A stretch of 57,337 nt of DNA. Source: Kalymmatonema hyalinum WJT4-NPBG1 (GTDB lineage: Bacteria > Cyanobacteriota > Cyanobacteriia > Cyanobacteriales > Nostocaceae). The position numbers and the translations under genes are program-made. Below, piece by piece: positions 30,551 through 41,838 of this stretch; position 1 is the stretch's first letter; each line of letters begins with the position of its first letter. Where the stretch lies: NCBI GenBank assembly GCA_019359075.1, contig JAHHIB010000056.1:1-57337 (forward strand), read 5' to 3'. The notes under the pieces are model-generated. The model saw only the letters and a program-made list of their open reading frames with translations. It searched no databases and was not told the DNA's origin.

Positions 30551-30802
30551 AAATACTCGCTCACGAGTTTTCAATATTCATTCACAAAGCTCAAACACTC
30601 GTCCACGAGTTCCAAACACTCGTCCATGAGTCCTAAATACTCGTCCACGAGTTCCAAACACTCGTCCACGAGTCCTAAATACTCGTCCACGAGTTCCAAA
30701 CACTCGTCCACGAGTTCTAAACACTCGTCCACGAGTTCCAAACACTCGTTCATGAGTCCTAAATACTCGTCCACGAGTCATAAACACTCATGGACGAAAG
30801 GA
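30551..30802. repeat. Twelve 21-bp tandem repeats with an internal palindrome
   Basis: The unit is AAACACTCGTCCACGAGTTCC with variants AAATACTCG... and ...GAGTCCT. Twelve units fit 30551-30802; units 3-11 are nearly identical and the outer ones are degenerate. Each core contains ACTCGT-CC-ACGAGT, a 6-bp inverted repeat. Because 21 is a multiple of three the array is open in several frames on both strands (heptads such as KHSSTSS), but this looks like a by-product. It sits between two minus-strand genes. Confidence 0.9.
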
Positions 30803-30822: not shown

Positions 30823-31299
30823 TTAAGAATCAGAAGCAGGTTTAACAGGTTTGCTTCTGATAGCTTTAAAGCGATCGCCTAACTGTTCAGCAAGACTTTT
30901 TAAACCAGGAGTCTTTTTAGCAGCTGTTTTCACGTAGTCATAAACCGTTAAACTGCTGCTGATGGCTTCACTCCCCACAGCTAATAAGGTATCATCTACC
31001 TGTTCGCTCAGTTGCCGCAGTGCAATCAAAAGTTCGGTGAGTGTAGCGGCTAATTGATAATCCCGTACAAATTCCTGAATGTCAAAACTAGCTGGTAAGA
31101 TGTCGGGGTTGGACTGAGCAGCGGTGATACTGTTGTTAACAAAGGCTAGGCTTTTATCGCCCATTTTAAATAACTTGCGGCGTTCTTCAGTACTTAAGGT
31201 AATCAGGAAAGGTAGCTTCTTTTGAATTGTTTGCAACGCTGCTTTGATTTGTTGCATATCTTCGGGGGAAAGAGAACCAGTGATGTTTTGGTATGCCAT
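30823..31299 (-). CDS. Conserved hypothetical helical protein
   Basis: The 158-residue product begins MAYQNITGSLSPEDMQQIKA and is predicted mostly helical, with no signal peptide. It ends in a basic, lysine/proline-rich tail (KAIRSKPVKPASDS). I recognise the pattern only as a conserved cyanobacterial hypothetical. ATG at 31299 is preferred over an upstream in-frame TTG-type extension, which reads like leader sequence. It is separated from the zinc-ribbon gene by the 21-bp tandem array. Confidence 0.7.
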   Translation of the reverse strand: MAYQNITGSLSPEDMQQIKAALQTIQKKLPFLITLSTEERRKLFKMGDKSLAFVNNSITAAQSNPDILPASFDIQEFVRDYQLAATLTELLIALRQLSEQVDDTLLAVGSEAISSSLTVYDYVKTAAKKTPGLKSLAEQLGDRFKAIRSKPVKPASDS

Positions 31300-32130: not shown

Positions 32131-32364
32131 CTATGCTACTTTCCAGGATTTTGCTAGCGTTTGAGGTTCTGGCAGAGGTTCACCATTTTCTAAAGATGTC
32201 TCAATTAACATCTCTATCACTTCTTGAGCATTTTTGAGAGCTTCTTCGTAGGTGTCTCCGTGAGTATGACAAAACTCTCCCCATTCAGGAAAACTGACAA
32301 CAAAACAATCATCTTCGTCAGACCACTGAATAATTATGGTGTAGTGAGAATTTACACTATACAT
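32131..32364 (-). CDS. HicB-like antitoxin family protein (no HicA)
   Basis: The 77-residue protein has the HicB partial RNase-H-like fold signature: YTIIIQWSDEDDCFVVSFPE near the start, then THGDTYEEALKNAQEVIE and a short tail with EPLPEPQ. HicB antitoxins normally pair with a HicA mRNA interferase. No HicA-like frame is adjacent, and the usual C-terminal DNA-binding part is absent, so it is a short orphan. ATG at 32364. Its start overlaps the end of the upstream 76-residue gene by 8 bp, indicating translational coupling. Confidence 0.8.
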   Translation of the reverse strand: MYSVNSHYTIIIQWSDEDDCFVVSFPEWGEFCHTHGDTYEEALKNAQEVIEMLIETSLENGEPLPEPQTLAKSWKVA

Positions 32365-32587
32365 CTGACCGAATTGTTCTCCAATTTTTTACACGACCTT
32401 CGGCAATATCTTTTTTACCCCTCTCAAAAGATTCTATAAAACCTGGAATATCGAGTAATTCTTGGGTTGCTTCTTCACTCTCTTTCTCTGCTAGATAAGC
32501 TAAAAAATCAGCAACTAGTTCTAGGTGTTCGGAAGATAATTCATCAAGGTATTGGTTGATTTGCTGACCAATTGCAGTGTTGTTCAT
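32357..32587 (-). CDS. Small antitoxin-like helical protein
   Basis: The 76-residue product starts MNNTAIGQQINQYLDELSSE and contains LELVADFLAYLAEKES and GKKDIAEGRVKNWRTIRSDV. This pattern matches small cyanobacterial proteins usually encoded just before a RelE/ParE-type toxin, which suggests a type II antitoxin; the assignment is from memory. Here the next gene is HicB-like instead of a toxin. It begins 16 bp after the stop of the NACHT gene (ATG 32587) and overlaps the HicB-like gene by 8 bp, so the run is very likely one transcript. Confidence 0.65.
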   Translation of the reverse strand: MNNTAIGQQINQYLDELSSEHLELVADFLAYLAEKESEEATQELLDIPGFIESFERGKKDIAEGRVKNWRTIRSDV

Positions 32588-32603: not shown

Positions 32604-35600
32604 CTACTTCTCTAATTCTGCCAACTTCTTCTGAGCAAACTCCCGCACTTTCTCATCGGGATCATTCTCCGCTCTGTCGCGCAACAGTGGTAAAGTTTGG
32701 GGATGGTGAGGATGTTGTTTGACAATTATCTCAAGTGCAACTCGCCGAGGATTGGTTCCATTGTTCTTCTCATGCTCAAAGGGGTCATTAACAGCGCAGT
32801 TGTAGTAGATATCAAACAACTCAGGCAGATAGGTGAAATTTTTACCTAATGCTTGGACTGCTGCACGTCGCACATCCGAATCATCATCAGCAGTGGCGCG
32901 TTCTTTGAGGAAGGCTAGGGTAGCGGCGTCATCTTTGTAGTTGCTGGCTAATGCTTGGACTGCTGCACGTCGCACAGACGAATTATCATCAGCAGTGGCG
33001 CGTTCTTTGAGGATGGCGAGGGTAGCGGTAGCGGTGTCATCTTTGTAGTTGCTGGCTAATGCTTGAACTGCTGCACCTCGTACATACTTATCATCATCAG
33101 CAGTGGCGCGTTCTTTGAGGATGGCGAGGGTAGCGGTAGCGGTGTCATCTTTGTAGTTGCTGGCTAATGCTTCGGCTGCTGCATATCGCACAAACAAATT
33201 ATTATCAGCAGTGGCGCGTTCTTTGAGGATGGCGAGGGTAGCGGTGTCATCTTTGTAGTTGCTGGCTAATGCTTGGACTGCTGCACGTCGCACATCCCAA
33301 GCATCATCAGCAGTGGCGCGTTCTTTGAGGATGGCGAGGGTAGCGGGGTCATCTTTGTAGTTGCTGGCTAATGCTTGGACTGCTGCATATCGCACACGCC
33401 AATTATCATTAGCAGTGGCGCGTTCTTTGAGGAAGGCGAGGGTAGCGGGGTCATCTTTGTAGTTGCTGGCTAATGCTTGGACTGCTGCACCTCGCACATT
33501 CCCAGAATAATCAGCAGTGGCGCGTTCTTTGAGGAAGGCGAGGGTAGCGGGGTCATCTTTGTAGTTGCTGGCTAATGCTTGGACTGCTGCACGTCGCACA
33601 TCCAAATGATTATCAGCAGTGGCGCGACCTTTGAGGATGGCTAGGGTAGTGGCGTCATCTTTGTAGTTGCTGGCTAAAGCTTGGATTGCTGCACGTCGCA
33701 CATCCGAATCATCATCAGCAGTGGCGCGTTCTTTGAGCCAGGCTAGGGTAGCGGCGTCATCTTTCCAAGTCGTTGCAACTGCTGCAACTGCTTGGGTGCG
33801 AATTTCCTGAACTAGTTTTCTCTCTTCTTCATCTTCATAGAGGTCGTAATAGTAATTTAAGTCATATTTGGTTAAATCTTTAAAGCGGTTAAGTAATTGC
33901 TGAGCAGTTTTTGCAATCACCGTCCTATTCCTGACATCTACAAGACACTTAGCCGCCAAAAAGAGATTGCTGAATTTCTCCGCCTCGCCATTTTGCGCCA
34001 TTAGGTAATCAAGAATTTCCCCTACAAATTTTGGCTCAATCATTCCTGTAATCAACCGCAGAACTTCATGCCAAGTTTCATCCCGCCAGTGTTTGCCAAA
34101 AACTTCACTCTTGAGTTCTTCAATTTCCAGAGTTTGCGTTTCTTTAAACTGCCAGACAAACTCCCAAGCACAGAAATATTCCAAAAACGTCCGATGGACA
34201 AAGGCATAGTAATCTGCACCCAGGAAACATAACATAAAGTTGCGAGTCCGTAGTTGCTCCCTCATCACCCTCGCAGCTTCTCTGGCTTTGTCAACTTCTA
34301 TGGTTTTTAGATACTCAGTCAAAATCCTTTCTAAATCATTTGCACTTATCAAATTGCCTGCCAAACCTTTTTCACTGGTTTGCATATGGTAAGCAACTTG
34401 ACGCAACATTGCTTGCTTATCTTTATAATCTATCGTTTTTGGGTCTAACCTCTTATCTTCCACCAAAGCGCGTTCCACATCCCATTGATGCAGTAAAACC
34501 CGCGATGCTTGATTGTAAAGTTCGGCTCTATCTCTTGGCAGTTCTTGGTTACGATTTAGAATTGCCATCATTGTTAACAGTAAAGGATTTCCTGCGAGTT
34601 CTGCAATCGATTTTGATGTGTCAATTCCTCTTTGCAGTCGCTCTTTTTTTCTCTCTCCATCAATCTTGTCAGTAAAAGTGTCAGAATGCCAACGGTTGAT
34701 AAAATCCTGAATTTGTTTTGGTTCCAAATCTTGCAGCATGAAATGCTTAAACTCAGCATCTCGCAGGCGTTGTGCTTTATATCCAATGACGCGAGAAGCC
34801 ACAATAACCTGCACATTGGAGTAGTCATTAGTGAAGCGATGAATATCTGTAATCACATCTTCTCGCCTACCAGGATCGAAGACTTCATCCAAACCATCAA
34901 ACATCACCAAGGCGTTACCAGCCTTGAGTTGTTCCTGCAATTGATGCTGATTCAAGTGAGCGATCGCACCGCTACATTTATGGAAGAATTCCAGAAAATT
35001 ATTGCATTCTTTGTCCTCCCGTCGCCGCATATAAGTGCGTAATTCAATCAGCAACGGAATTGGCAGATGATTTTTCTTATCAAGCTGATCAAGTGTTTGT
35101 TCTACCCAATCTAACGCTAGGTATTGCAATAACGTGGACTTACCTGAACCTGGATCGCCTAAAATTACGATACATTTATACTTTTGCTTGTCTTCGACAA
35201 TCTCTTTAACAGAACGCACAGTTTGTTCAAAATAATCTCGTTTGTGGCGTTCCAACTCTTCTTGTAAAATTTCTTCTGCTTCTAGTTCGTTCTTTTCTCG
35301 CAGTCGTCGGAGATGTTCTTTAGGCAATTCGTGAACTTGTGGTAATACTTGGTGAACTTCCCGCACATTTTGAGGGATAAACATTCGCCATAACCGCAAT
35401 TCATTATACGCGTAACCGCTGGTATCTAGACTATCAAATTTTAGATTGGCGTAGCGCTCGCGAATTGCTTCTTGATATTTAATTAAATTAAATTCGGGGA
35501 TAATACCAGCAGTCTCTGTTGTGTTTTCTGCGATTTTTTCAAGATTTTTGGAATCCAGAATAGCTCTAAGTTCAGATGAGTCCTGAATAATCGCTTTAAC

Positions 35601-36056
35601 TTTTTTGACGTAACGCTTCCCCAGCTTACTCCAATCAAAGTCGTTTGGTAGAGATAATAAATTCAGTTCGTGCCAAATGCTTTTTAATGTCTTTATATCT
35701 ACAACGTCACACTCATCATTAAAAGGAGTTCCCAGTATTTGTTTAACTCTTTGATCATTGAGAAATTTTTGGAGTGGTTTGTTATATTCCCTAACTTCGT
35801 TATCAGAAATGTCAGCATCTTGTAAATCTTGCTGCACCAGTGCTAAAAATTCTTTGAGTGCTTTGCCAGCAGCAATGTCTATGTCTTCCTTTTTTAATCG
35901 CTGTAAAATCCGACTGGGGACAGCTTTTAATACATCTTTGAGGACATCTTTTAATAAATCTTTGCCTACATCTTGGGCAAATTGTTTCATCACTGGTTGG
36001 AAGAGAAACCCAACAGCAGTACTAACTCCCCAAGCCGTTAAGAAGTCTATAGGCAT
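32604..36056 (-). CDS. NACHT NTPase with nine near-identical HEAT-like repeats
   Basis: The 1150-residue STAND protein has a helical N-terminal domain (about 1-190, starting MPIDFLTAWGVSTAVGFL), a linker, and a NACHT NTPase (about 290-500) with Walker A GDPGSGKST at 300-308, Walker B LVMFDGLDE at 383-391, a VIVASR sensor and the NPLLLTMMA motif. A helical arm follows with FVHRTFLEYFCAWEF at about 619-633. From residue 765 to 1074 there are nine HEAT-like repeats of 34 residues (two of 36), then a divergent repeat-like C-terminus. Consensus pieces are KDDxATLAxLKERATADD, then xxxVRRAAVQALASNY. Bacterial NACHT proteins include antiphage sensors; a recognition role here is inferred. ATG at 36056. 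It heads a four-gene run with antitoxin-like genes. Confidence 0.92.
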   Translation of the reverse strand: MPIDFLTAWGVSTAVGFLFQPVMKQFAQDVGKDLLKDVLKDVLKAVPSRILQRLKKEDIDIAAGKALKEFLALVQQDLQDADISDNEVREYNKPLQKFLNDQRVKQILGTPFNDECDVVDIKTLKSIWHELNLLSLPNDFDWSKLGKRYVKKVKAIIQDSSELRAILDSKNLEKIAENTTETAGIIPEFNLIKYQEAIRERYANLKFDSLDTSGYAYNELRLWRMFIPQNVREVHQVLPQVHELPKEHLRRLREKNELEAEEILQEELERHKRDYFEQTVRSVKEIVEDKQKYKCIVILGDPGSGKSTLLQYLALDWVEQTLDQLDKKNHLPIPLLIELRTYMRRREDKECNNFLEFFHKCSGAIAHLNQHQLQEQLKAGNALVMFDGLDEVFDPGRREDVITDIHRFTNDYSNVQVIVASRVIGYKAQRLRDAEFKHFMLQDLEPKQIQDFINRWHSDTFTDKIDGERKKERLQRGIDTSKSIAELAGNPLLLTMMAILNRNQELPRDRAELYNQASRVLLHQWDVERALVEDKRLDPKTIDYKDKQAMLRQVAYHMQTSEKGLAGNLISANDLERILTEYLKTIEVDKAREAARVMREQLRTRNFMLCFLGADYYAFVHRTFLEYFCAWEFVWQFKETQTLEIEELKSEVFGKHWRDETWHEVLRLITGMIEPKFVGEILDYLMAQNGEAEKFSNLFLAAKCLVDVRNRTVIAKTAQQLLNRFKDLTKYDLNYYYDLYEDEEERKLVQEIRTQAVAAVATTWKDDAATLAWLKERATADDDSDVRRAAIQALASNYKDDATTLAILKGRATADNHLDVRRAAVQALASNYKDDPATLAFLKERATADYSGNVRGAAVQALASNYKDDPATLAFLKERATANDNWRVRYAAVQALASNYKDDPATLAILKERATADDAWDVRRAAVQALASNYKDDTATLAILKERATADNNLFVRYAAAEALASNYKDDTATATLAILKERATADDDKYVRGAAVQALASNYKDDTATATLAILKERATADDNSSVRRAAVQALASNYKDDAATLAFLKERATADDDSDVRRAAVQALGKNFTYLPELFDIYYNCAVNDPFEHEKNNGTNPRRVALEIIVKQHPHHPQTLPLLRDRAENDPDEKVREFAQKKLAELEK
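32835..33764 (-). repeat. Nine-unit intragenic HEAT-like repeat array
   Basis: Seven 102-bp and two 108-bp units encode residues 765-1074. DNA identity between units is very high (for example ttgctggctaatgcttggac and gcagtggcgcgttctttgag recur in almost every unit). Change is concentrated in codons 17-21 and 24 of the unit: DDDSDVRR, DNHLDVRR, DYSGNVRG, NDNWRVRY, DDAWDVRR, DNNLFVRY, DDDKYVRG, DDNSSVRR, DDDSDVRR. Units 7 and 8 carry an extra TA dipeptide (TATATLA). Confidence 0.95.
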
Positions 36057-39234: not shown

Positions 39235-41838
39235 TCAATAATTGTTCGGTCTGACTAAATTTTTAAATTTGGTAAATTGTGGGTCAAACAAGAGTCTAAC
39301 ATTACCAGTGGGACCATTGCGGTGTTTCGCTACGATGACCTCGGCAATTCCTCTTTCAGGGCTGTCGCTGTTATAGTAATCATCTCTATACAGCATTAAC
39401 ACTAAATCCGCGTCCTGTTCGATACTTCCACTTTCTCTTAAATCGGATAACATGGGACGCTTGTTAGTGCGTGATTCTACTCCTCGACTCAACTGAGATA
39501 GAGCAATCACTGGGACAGATAATTCACGCGCTAAACTTTTAATACTTCGGGTAATTTTTGATATTTCTTGCACACGATTATCCCCCGCTCCTTCCATCAA
39601 TTGCAAGTAATCTATGATAATTAGTCCCAGTTCTGTACCCAATTCCGCTTGCAAGCGCCGTGCCTGACTCCGCATTTCTGTGACTGTAATATTGGGCGTA
39701 TCGTCAATAAAAATTGGCGTTTCCGAGAGCATACCAATAGCACGGCTTAAAGGTTCCCATTGAGTTTGACTGATGCGTCCACTCCGCAAATAACCACTTT
39801 CAATTCCCGCTTCGCTCGCCAACAGCCGCTGCACCAGTTGTTCTTTTGACATTTCCAAGCTGAAAACAGCAACTGGTAATTTATATGAAGCTGCAATGTT
39901 ATGAGCGATATTCAAACAAAAAGCGGTGTTGTGAACACAAATATCATTGGCAACAAAATTATGGGTAACAGGAATTGTCAAGTCATACACTTGTTTGTAT
40001 CCCACTGATTCTATAGAAACGATTTCATCCCAATAGACATCTCCTGTTGCTGATTGTTGTAAGGAGAAATCTTCTAATCTATTTGCCATCAAACAACGTT
40101 CTGGTGATAAAGCTTGTTTTACCACAGGAATATTTGTGTCTGCTTTGATTCTCGTTCTACGTGCTAAAACTGTCCACGGTTCTTCATCTTTGGCTGCTGT
40201 TATCTCCCGGAAGGTTTCTACTGGAATGAGATCATAATTAGTTTGATATCTCTTATTAATTAAAGCTACTTGTACTTGTAACAAAGCGCTTTCTTTGCTA
40301 AAGATACCAATTTCTGAGAGAAAAAATTGAATAGATTGGGTATCAGTAATATCTAGTTGCCAAGCTTGTCTACAAGTGTCTTTGTATTTAACAGACCGCT
40401 TGTTCAAAGTCGCAATGATGCCAAACCTCAGCAGCAGATGTTGTACCTGTCTTGCCAGTTTCTCGCTAACAGTGCAATAGCCTAATTGTGCCTGACCACT
40501 TGCAAGCAGCGTAGCCCAACCATCTGTGGCAAAGAGACGGTTGAGGAATAAAGAAACTTGCGATCGCTCTAGTTGAAAGATACAAGCAGGAATTATTTTT
40601 TCCTCAGCTTTTTTGCCCCATAAAGCCTGATTCTCCAGCCACTCAGTTAGAGGGCTTTTTTCCTCTTGGCACATAGCAGCATACAGAATTGAGGAACGCT
40701 CAGGGCGATAATTGCAAACTTTCAGTTGAGGAGAAAAGCTGATAACAGCATTTTGGAAATCTTCCTGAATCAAAGGGTTTATATTTGTCAATTCAGGTGT
40801 TGTGTCTGTCAAACAACCATCTCCTATAAAGTAGGCAAGTAATTTGACTTCACACTCACGAATTGTTTTTGTACCAAACACATTTATTCTGCGAGGTACA
40901 GCAATTTTATCACCTACTTTCAGTTCTGAAAGTGGACGCCATCCATCAAGAGTCAAATAAGGATGAGTCATGGTCGTTTCAACATATCGCCCCAGTCGAG
41001 TTGTGACGCCTAAAACTGGTTTGATACCGTCATCGACAAATGCAGATGGTTGAGCAATCTCTAATTTCCAATCGTCTGTTAAGGTCAGTAGATCTGCATG
41101 ACGACGATGATAAATTTCTTCGATAGTAGAAATGGAACCATCTGCTAGAAGAATTTCTGTGTTATGTGCTATACATTTCCCCATTGATGGGCGACCAGCA
41201 ACAATAATTAAATCAGAACGCTGAAAACCACTGGTCATTCCATCTAAATCGTAAAACCCGCAGGGAATACCTGGTAAGGCGACACCTTCATTGCGAGTTT
41301 CAATATCTTGAAAAGTATTAATTAGGGTGTCAGAAATGTGAACCAGACCAACTTGAGGGCGTTCTTGAGTGACGTTGAACACTTTTTGTTCTGCTTGGTC
41401 TAAAACTATTGGTAATTCGGTTTCTGTCTGGTAACCCAAATGCACTATTTCATTACCAGCCTTAATTAACCGACGCCGCAGGTATTTTTCCATCACCAAC
41501 TCTGCTAAAGCGTCGATGTTGACGGCTGATACTGTGCGGTCTATTAGTGTTGCTAATTTATTTCTACCGCCAACACGCGCTAGCATATCGTGGTCGTTTA
41601 GCCAATTTATCACCGCAAGCAAATCTGTGGGCTTACCTTCACTGTGTAGGCGTTGCGCTGCTTGATAGATATCTTTATGAGCGCTAATGTAAAAAGCTTC
41701 TGGAATCAGGCGATCGTTCACTCTGCTGATCGCTTCCGGATCTAGCAAAATTCCGCCCAATATCGCTTCTTCCGCCTCAATGTTTTGGGGAGGGAGGCGA
41801 TCCATACCATTACCTTGAAAGTTTAGTTCTTCAGACAT
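39235..41838 (-). CDS. dnaB: Replicative DNA helicase DnaB with an in-frame intein
   Basis: The 867-residue precursor splits into DnaB exteins of 221 + 230 residues (451 after splicing, the normal DnaB size) and a 416-residue intein. N-extein: LPPQNIEAEEAILGGILLD, and the P-loop AGRPSMGK. C-extein: TAFCLNIAHN, VFSLEMSKEQLVQRLL, LIIIDYLQLM, ALSQLSRGVESR and AKHRNGPTG. It unwinds DNA at the replication fork as a hexamer. The intein splits the Walker A motif between Lys221 and Thr638, so the helicase is inactive until splicing. ATG at 41838. The common cyanobacterial neighbour rplI is not present upstream. Confidence 0.95.
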   Translation of the reverse strand: MSEELNFQGNGMDRLPPQNIEAEEAILGGILLDPEAISRVNDRLIPEAFYISAHKDIYQAAQRLHSEGKPTDLLAVINWLNDHDMLARVGGRNKLATLIDRTVSAVNIDALAELVMEKYLRRRLIKAGNEIVHLGYQTETELPIVLDQAEQKVFNVTQERPQVGLVHISDTLINTFQDIETRNEGVALPGIPCGFYDLDGMTSGFQRSDLIIVAGRPSMGKCIAHNTEILLADGSISTIEEIYHRRHADLLTLTDDWKLEIAQPSAFVDDGIKPVLGVTTRLGRYVETTMTHPYLTLDGWRPLSELKVGDKIAVPRRINVFGTKTIRECEVKLLAYFIGDGCLTDTTPELTNINPLIQEDFQNAVISFSPQLKVCNYRPERSSILYAAMCQEEKSPLTEWLENQALWGKKAEEKIIPACIFQLERSQVSLFLNRLFATDGWATLLASGQAQLGYCTVSEKLARQVQHLLLRFGIIATLNKRSVKYKDTCRQAWQLDITDTQSIQFFLSEIGIFSKESALLQVQVALINKRYQTNYDLIPVETFREITAAKDEEPWTVLARRTRIKADTNIPVVKQALSPERCLMANRLEDFSLQQSATGDVYWDEIVSIESVGYKQVYDLTIPVTHNFVANDICVHNTAFCLNIAHNIAASYKLPVAVFSLEMSKEQLVQRLLASEAGIESGYLRSGRISQTQWEPLSRAIGMLSETPIFIDDTPNITVTEMRSQARRLQAELGTELGLIIIDYLQLMEGAGDNRVQEISKITRSIKSLARELSVPVIALSQLSRGVESRTNKRPMLSDLRESGSIEQDADLVLMLYRDDYYNSDSPERGIAEVIVAKHRNGPTGNVRLLFDPQFTKFKNLVRPNNY
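39928..41175 (-). mobile_element. DnaB intein with LAGLIDADG-type endonuclease domain
   Basis: Residues 222-637. The first residue is Cys222 (CIAHNTEILLADGS), block B is TTMTHPYLTLDGW, and the C-terminal blocks are VYDLTIPVTHNFVAND and CVHN, with Thr638 as the +1 nucleophile. The endonuclease core shows two LAGLIDADG-like helices, LLAYFIGDG and FLNRLFATDG, each ending in the catalytic aspartate. Both splicing and homing activities look intact. The insertion point is the P-loop site used by many DnaB inteins. Confidence 0.9.

Follow-up and report, generated by a model that had tools for sequence, protein, structure and literature searches.

Architecture of the gene

The window, a stretch of 57,337 nucleotides (nt) from the filamentous cyanobacterium Kalymmatonema hyalinum WJT4-NPBG1 (contig JAHHIB010000056.1), carries on its reverse strand a gene (32604..36056) for a protein of 1150 amino acids (aa), which the open reading frame (ORF) list and profile matches delimit as an NNH2-NACHT-HEAT protein. 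All parts of the gene lie on that strand. A hydrophobic helix at about residues 3-22 (35991..36050) is followed by NNH2, the NACHT N-terminal helical domain 2 (residues 31-212; 35421..35966; PF22734, E 3.6e-66), and by the NACHT NTPase domain (residues 296-459; 34680..35171; PF05729, E 3.4e-12, above the cut-off). An array of nine near-identical 34-aa HEAT units, detected by Tandem Repeats Finder and by profile matches, spans 32846..33764, and a conserved C-terminal cap lies 3' of it (32607..32834). Alignment of 22 sequences showed invariant residues in the P-loop of NACHT (G300, P302, G303, G305, K306 and S307) and in the cap (D1091, P1103, A1107, L1122, L1125, D1132 and D1134); in the first helix W9 is invariant and G16 nearly so.

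This order of an N-terminal domain, a central NTPase and C-terminal superstructure-forming repeats is the layout of NLR-related NACHT proteins of the STAND class. Structure modelling of the full protein gave a pLDDT of 75.8 and a pTM of 0.47, with most of the array at about 90, and the array modelled alone, without an alignment, reached 84.5; residues 1-16, in the first helix, fell below 50. The Foldseek neighbours of the model included NOD2, NLRC4 and NLRP3 alongside HEAT proteins, with E values down to 1.5e-7. The best 19-residue hydropathy of the first helix is 1.43 in the window protein and 1.24-1.98 in 17 ORFs, in several of which that stretch precedes the likely start. The organism's own 8.4-Mb assembly contains 35 NACHT matches at E<=0.001.

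A variable block within near-identical repeats

Tandem Repeats Finder resolved the array as 8.9 copies of a 102-nt period with 89% matches. The VR motifs of the nine units stand at residues 786, 820, 854, 888, 922, 956, 992, 1028 and 1062; eight units are complete, two carry a 2-aa insertion (36 aa), and the block of the ninth runs into the C-terminal cap. We defined the variable block as unit columns 6-10 and 13 and the remaining 28 columns as scaffold, for which nucleotide identity among the window units is 0.89. The blocks read in order DDDSD.R, DNHLD.R, DYSGN.G, NDNWR.Y, DDAWD.R, DNNLF.Y, DDDKY.G, DDNSS.R and DDDSD.R, so that eight of the nine are different and the first equals the last. 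Units 1 (33693..33716) and 9 (32865..32888) share the same codons for DDDSD-VR-R, and successive blocks are spaced by 102 or 108 nt.

An earlier note on this DNA had described units that are nearly identical except at a small block, and the counts bear this out: among the eight complete units, three or more residues occur at columns 7, 8, 9, 10 and 13 and at scaffold columns 16 and 27, that is, at 5/6 block and 2/28 scaffold columns (Fisher p=0.0004). The earlier note had not pointed out where in the codon the block changes fall: in these eight units at least 13 are at position 1, at least 8 at position 2 and none at position 3, and the nine units together contain no synonymous block difference. 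The third bases of the block codons are fixed in all nine (T T T G T, and T after VR), and by a hand calculation the chance of at least 21 changes without one at the third position, under equal per-site rates, is (2/3)^21, or about 2e-4. Selection explains most of this fixation, with mutational bias as a further possibility.

A diversity-generating retroelement, or some other template-driven mutator, might also write such blocks. Codons of the form AAY vary at positions 1 and 2 under adenine mutagenesis, and it is at these two positions only that the window block codons vary. Nine RVT_1 matches, eight of them above the cut-off, are present in the same genome, none linked to the array, and diversified NACHT-linked sensors of this kind have been described in multicellular bacteria (PMC10907252). 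However, the array DNA is the single match in the organism's own assembly (95% complete), which hence holds no template repeat. The first base of the column 6-7 codons changes in the window and the second-base A never does, a comparison made with no template at hand, and short exchanges of block size are seen between units (below). We consider a mutator of this kind most unlikely.

Selection on the block across related arrays

Arrays were parsed from 71 loci (L numbers), which are part of the matches listed and to which the 80 named relatives contributed none. One genome per species was used, so all variation was compared between species, and pN/pS was obtained by pairwise counting. The arrays are divided here into a variable type and a conserved type, the latter with a recognisable series of blocks called the barcode. 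The degenerate first unit (LVQE type) was excluded from the pairwise identity, nearest-scaffold, codon-position, 26-array pN/pS, conserved-clade ratio, unit-number and coupling analyses, and retained in the column variability of 24 arrays, in a first pN/pS set of 23 arrays and in the block-copy counts. L053, with 2 units, was left out of the nearest-scaffold, 26-array pN/pS, codon-position and later analyses; L092 and L040, with diverged scaffolds, belong to the codon-position, nearest-scaffold and coupling sets (28 arrays) and stand outside the pN/pS and unit-number sets (26).

Amino-acid differences among the units of one array are greatest at columns 7-10 and 13 (24 arrays), and D, N, S, R, Y, E, G, W and H make up most of the block in variable-type arrays. 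The earlier note had proposed a site-wise dN/dS test on aligned units, to which the 26 variable-type arrays give an answer: pN/pS is 1.57 in the block (bootstrap over arrays 1.22-2.16) and 0.72 in the scaffold (0.63-0.84), with pN above pS in the block of 22 arrays. The first set of 23 arrays, of both types, has a block ratio above 1 in 19. Single-column ratios are 4.4 at column 7, 3.1 at column 10 and 8.3 at column 13, and reach 7.8 and 5.4 at scaffold columns 14 and 17. Block positions 1 and 2 are less alike than position 3 in 27/28 variable-type arrays compared with 8/26 conserved-type arrays; mean identity in the variable type is 0.638 at block positions 1 and 2, 0.825 at block position 3 and 0.774 at scaffold third positions. 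These sequence comparisons show that the block codons of variable-type arrays change mainly at amino-acid-changing positions.

A sister clade that keeps its blocks

The 28 sequences with a recognisable barcode form one clade in a quick tree built on NNH2-NACHT alone, from which seven partial loci were excluded; L059, with a run of X, and L099, with a broken frame, are members of the clade outside its 26 arrays. This conserved group was first picked by its barcode, which makes the pairwise block contrast partly circular; the monophyly of its NNH2-NACHT part (the engine) is independent of that choice. At 93-96% engine identity, conserved-type pairs have block and scaffold identities of 0.97 and 0.90 (11 pairs), whereas variable-type pairs have a block identity of 0.39, against 0.38 for any two units, and a scaffold identity of 0.78 (17 pairs). 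Two of the three variable-type pairs above 96% likewise have unlike blocks (L110/L112, 0.32; L111/L112, 0.35). The conserved barcode does drift, with block identities of 0.69-0.70 at 70-85% engine identity compared with 0.35 for any unit, and is kept over NNH2-NACHT dS values above 1 (e.g. L015/L043). For neighbouring species of the conserved type, the ratio is 0.058 (0.028-0.096) in the block compared with 0.139 (0.115-0.165) in the scaffold (bootstrap P 0.0003, from 83 unit pairs of 7 species pairs). Unit number is 12 in 23/26 conserved-type arrays and 11 in the other 3/26, and ranges from 4 to 16 in the 26 variable-type arrays. Both types occur together in at least four genomes (G016, G026, G027 and G034).

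These contrasts in block and scaffold identity, selection and unit number indicate that the same residues have been driven to change in the variable type and held in the conserved clade. The diversification proposed by the earlier note is thus upheld for variable-type arrays and not for the family as a whole, whose sister clade of 28 keeps a 12-unit barcode under strong purifying selection.

The block might instead be a loosely constrained loop, in which slippage and conversion homogenise the repeats and the turn tolerates change. Interhelical turns are often tolerant of change, and repeat arrays readily expand and contract; the wide range of unit numbers in variable-type arrays, and pN/pS values below 1 at columns 6, 8 and 9 taken alone, would agree with this. 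A loose loop should, however, change silently as often as not, which is contrary both to the 27 of 28 variable-type arrays that are less alike at positions 1 and 2 and to the eight window units, with at least 21 block changes at those positions and none at position 3. A strong counter-argument comes from the conserved clade: because its block is under stronger purifying selection than its scaffold, the strip formed by the blocks is functional, and we reject the loose loop as very improbable.

Persistence of the barcode over such distances would also be expected of a conserved regulator or scaffold that serves a housekeeping partner and has no part in conflict. Variable-type members with 93-97% identical engines nevertheless mostly bear unlike blocks, whole arrays have been replaced (below), and the family is patchy, with NNH2-NACHT relatives at E<=1e-150 in 119/217 family genomes. 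A housekeeping role of this kind therefore seems improbable.

How the arrays change

For 180/292 variable-type units and 16/309 conserved-type units, the most similar scaffold belongs to another unit of the same array. Concerted evolution, by which scaffolds are homogenised within variable-type arrays, is shown by this comparison of units; together with the block and scaffold ratios of 1.57 and 0.72 it agrees with the earlier proposal of a homogenised scaffold carrying a diversified strip.

Several routes of change are indicated by close relatives. L110 and L112 are 90-100% alike in their first twelve 60-aa windows and 98% in the upstream flank but only 53-68% in seven array windows, and this likeness of engine and flank beside an unlike array marks a replacement of the whole array. 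Unit 1 is not the same in L110 and L111: at columns 8-10 the L111 codons are those of its own unit 2, the codons that follow VR retain the unit-1 form, and column 4 is also altered, to a codon present in unit 3. This difference resembles a short-tract copy whose direction is unproven. Among 143 unit pairs with common block codons, only 23 also have common flanks, and among 44 pairs with identical scaffold the block differs in 23 (26 arrays in each case). Duplications of several units are visible in L054 and L057. The earlier note had named unit-number change as an easy route to new specificities; such change is seen between species, as one route beside block exchange between units and whole-array replacement. 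The arrays of L051, L059 and L044 hold runs of X, which stem from N in the DNA and are probably gaps in the assembly, and short-read assemblies may miscount units.

Coupling between block columns was assessed against within-array shuffles in 28 variable-type arrays (222 array-and-block rows, degenerate first units removed). It is strong for columns 8-9, 8-10 and 9-10 (z 8.9, 5.8 and 5.8) and weak or absent elsewhere (z 0.5 to 2.6 for pairs with column 13, 0.5 to 3.0 for the rest); an apparent coupling of all block columns had been inflated by the degenerate first units, and only these three pairs were strong once they were removed. The block could conceivably be a modular cassette, with types that have recurring endings (WD, SD, ED, EY), coupled columns 8-10, short-tract exchange between units and a unit order that spells the target as a code, so that one bacterium would own a conserved-barcode and a freely rewritten sensor made from the same parts. 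We hold such a code to be improbable, and slightly more so than at first because strong coupling is limited to columns 8-10.

A predicted binding surface

Searches of the PDB with the sequence returned, at E<=0.001, ten distinct sequences (among them 4zv6 and 3ltj; best E 3.2e-10), all of which are artificial helical binders of alphaRep type: nine bear the name alphaRep or artificial helical repeat protein, and the tenth is called BGFP-C. In alphaRep, whose unit is presumably 31 residues long against 34 in the natural array, position 30 is, we assume, among those randomised. The randomised positions also include 18, 19, 22, 23 and 26 (PMC3754942). With the shared VR taken as positions 20-21, a reading of the alignment, these five and the assumed position 30 correspond to unit columns 9, 10, 13, 14, 17 and 21, and these six columns are more variable than the other 28 (mean 0.55 vs 0.24, one-sided p=9e-5). 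The alphaRep binder faces are concave; in A3, 19/19 interface residues are at randomised positions, and in its partner bA3-2 only 11/22 are (PMC3754942).

The helix after the loop begins at column 9 in both structure models. By HEAT numbering, the block is presumably the equivalent of the intra-repeat loop of the PP2A scaffold. Such loops form a partner-binding ridge in that protein (PMC1945078). The block columns thus probably form an exposed binding strip, as alphaRep homology and helix boundaries suggest, and the earlier expectation that the variable positions lie on a binding face is supported by their correspondence to the randomised positions. The three outcomes that the earlier note had set against itself were not what we found: the block ratio exceeds 1, the arrays of relatives differ, and the variable residues, by homology only, are predicted not to be buried.

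Predicted function

Taken together, these observations make it fairly probable that the gene encodes an intracellular NLR-type (STAND/NACHT) sensor whose HEAT solenoid is the recognition domain and exists in hypervariable and conserved versions. Each near-identical unit would give a few contact residues, chiefly at columns 7-10 and 13 and to a lesser degree at 14, 17 and 21, to a single continuous strip, which may bind an invader's protein or else an altered protein of the host or its kin. By analogy with NLRs, ligand binding would release the NACHT switch and lead to oligomerisation, after which the NNH2 helical domain and the hydrophobic first helix might harm or kill the cell; the presence of that helix before NNH2 hints faintly at an action on the membrane. 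Variable-type genes would track a fast-changing ligand directly and the conserved-barcode clade would watch a conserved one.

Several findings weigh against this sensor reading or blur it. PADLOC matches are confined to the AAA region (best E 2.4e-6), and the protein reaches 42.5 bits with EruA, the NCBIfam model for antiphage NACHT proteins, whose cut-off is 1000; known antiphage models were accordingly rejected as an identification, the NCBIfam matches being HEAT proteins. Foldseek TM-scores are only about 0.2 on a model of fair quality, and exposure of the strip is deduced from homology and helix boundaries. The block ratio is not above 1 in 4/23 arrays of the first set (L015, L040, L043 and L058) and 4/26 of the second, and L040 is the sole variable-type exception among the 28 arrays in the codon-position comparison. 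Two close pairs have a block dN/dS below 1 (L110/L111, Nd 6, Sd 2, 0.49; L094/L095, Nd 4, Sd 2, 0.37), and the closest variable-type pair, L110/L111 at 97% engine identity, retains 0.93 of its block residues. Because pN/pS falls below 1 at block columns 6, 8 and 9 taken singly (0.87, 0.87 and 0.78) and exceeds 1 at ten scaffold columns (1, 4, 14, 15, 17, 19, 25, 30, 32 and 34), the strip is not sharply bounded.

For such a sensor, phage defence would be the likely role, and the main alternative is recognition of kin or self variants (allorecognition), as in fungal heterokaryon-incompatibility NLRs. The evolutionary signature matches that of fungal NLRs with internally conserved repeats (PMC4986451, PMC12222747), and kin recognition has been raised for the sensors of multicellular bacteria (PMC10907252). 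However, none of the nine loci viewed has a conspicuous polymorphic partner gene beside the receptor-like gene, the neighbours being toxin-antitoxin-like modules and a conserved 158-aa gene; we regard allorecognition as unlikely.

Relation to known systems

The component phenomena are known: diversified near-identical repeats in fungi, near-identical WD40 blades in cyanobacteria, retroelement-diversified NACHT sensors in multicellular bacteria, and a variable/conserved split in plants. Fungal NLRs whose repeats within one gene are highly alike (Podospora HNWD, ANK and TPR types; PMC4986451, PMC12222747) resemble the window gene in their near-identical repeats, repeat-number change and few diversified codons per repeat on a predicted binding face, and HEAT forms are mentioned among them (PMC12222747). 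The present family differs in being bacterial, in combining HEAT units with NNH2, in that its variation was seen between species, and in its conserved-barcode sister clade. Cyanobacterial STAND WD40 proteins (WRAP domain, Npun_R6612 of Nostoc punctiforme; PMC9218822) likewise have near-identical repeats, recent amplification and rapid turnover, but these are beta-propellers rather than HEAT solenoids and are described there as amplification, without a diversified strip or conserved counterpart in the text available.

Highly variable plant NLRs and their conserved paralogues (PMC8226289) show the same family split, with variable residues clustered on the binding surface; those are LRR receptors studied within species, and the conserved ones are dispersed in the tree, whereas here they form one clade. 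The alphaRep binders (PMC3754942) have the repeat type of the window array but come from a laboratory library and have no NACHT domain, and in the natural array columns 7 and 8 also vary. bNACHT25 and other bacterial NACHT antiphage proteins (PMC12169576) share the NACHT engine with an N-terminal effector; bNACHT25 has a nuclease and an NCH1 domain, and the accessible part of the paper describes no comparable repeat array. Retroelement-diversified sensors (PMC10907252) are also carried on NACHT proteins of multicellular bacteria, but there C-type lectin domains are mutated from a template by reverse transcriptase, and no template was found here in the organism's own assembly. Among the open-licence matches listed, a scope that leaves subscription papers and preprints outside, no title concerned a NACHT-HEAT family of bacteria in which a diversified strip stands beside a sister clade of the conserved kind.

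If the sensor reading holds, bacterial innate immunity would gain a natural and readable specificity strip. Since the engine is alike, the contact residues vary and a sister clade of the same architecture keeps them, specificity should be addressable by swapping a few codons. In culturable organisms, the family would be a counterpart both to the plant receptors with their variable and conserved members and to the fungal receptors built on repeats, and nature seems to vary largely the surface that protein engineers randomised for HEAT binders.

Genomic neighbourhood and distribution

Downstream of the receptor-like gene and on the same strand lie a HicB-like antitoxin gene (32131..32364, Pfam match), with no HicA-like ORF of at least 55 aa beside it, and a conserved gene of 158 aa (30823..31299). 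The latter follows the window gene and 12 relatives, none of the conserved type, on the same strand at 0.4-2.1 kb; it was not seen beside conserved-type loci (downstream flanks of 0.14-3.9 kb) or at L044, L046, L048, L053, L057, L091 and L092 (flanks above 2.1 kb). This shared neighbour suggests that part of the variable-type genes occupy one chromosomal slot, which also holds HicA-HicB-like and other small modules; HicA-HicB-like pairs were recognised by eye downstream of the gene in L052, L053, L094, L110 and L112, with Pfam run on the L094 HicA only. The upstream flank of the window gene is 91% alike in Scytonema sp. NIES-4073 and Tolypothrix campylonemoides VB511288, two congeners, whereas the tree places the NNH2-NACHT part of the gene among other genera, which suggests that the gene was replaced within the slot.

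Named relatives (80 kept of 129) include members of Nostoc, Brasilonema, Anabaena, Calothrix and Mastigocoleus, with less alike ones in Okeania. One relative (L183) is carried by a Nostoc carneum NIES-2107 plasmid (plasmid1), which implies that the family can be mobile, and two (L028 and L029) have frames broken by stop codons, suggesting turnover by decay. Directly after the receptor-like gene, a 76-aa ORF (32357-32587) without Pfam or NCBIfam match looks by eye like a toxin-antitoxin component; closely related ORFs follow L041 and lie near L110 and L112. A tandem array with a 21/42-nt unit and inverted halves (ACTCGT...ACGAGT) lies downstream of the 158-aa gene at 30593-30789, and repeat ORFs of other sequence follow that gene in L054 and L094. 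Further away, a DnaB-like replicative helicase ORF (39235-41838) contains, on reading of its translation, an apparent intein.

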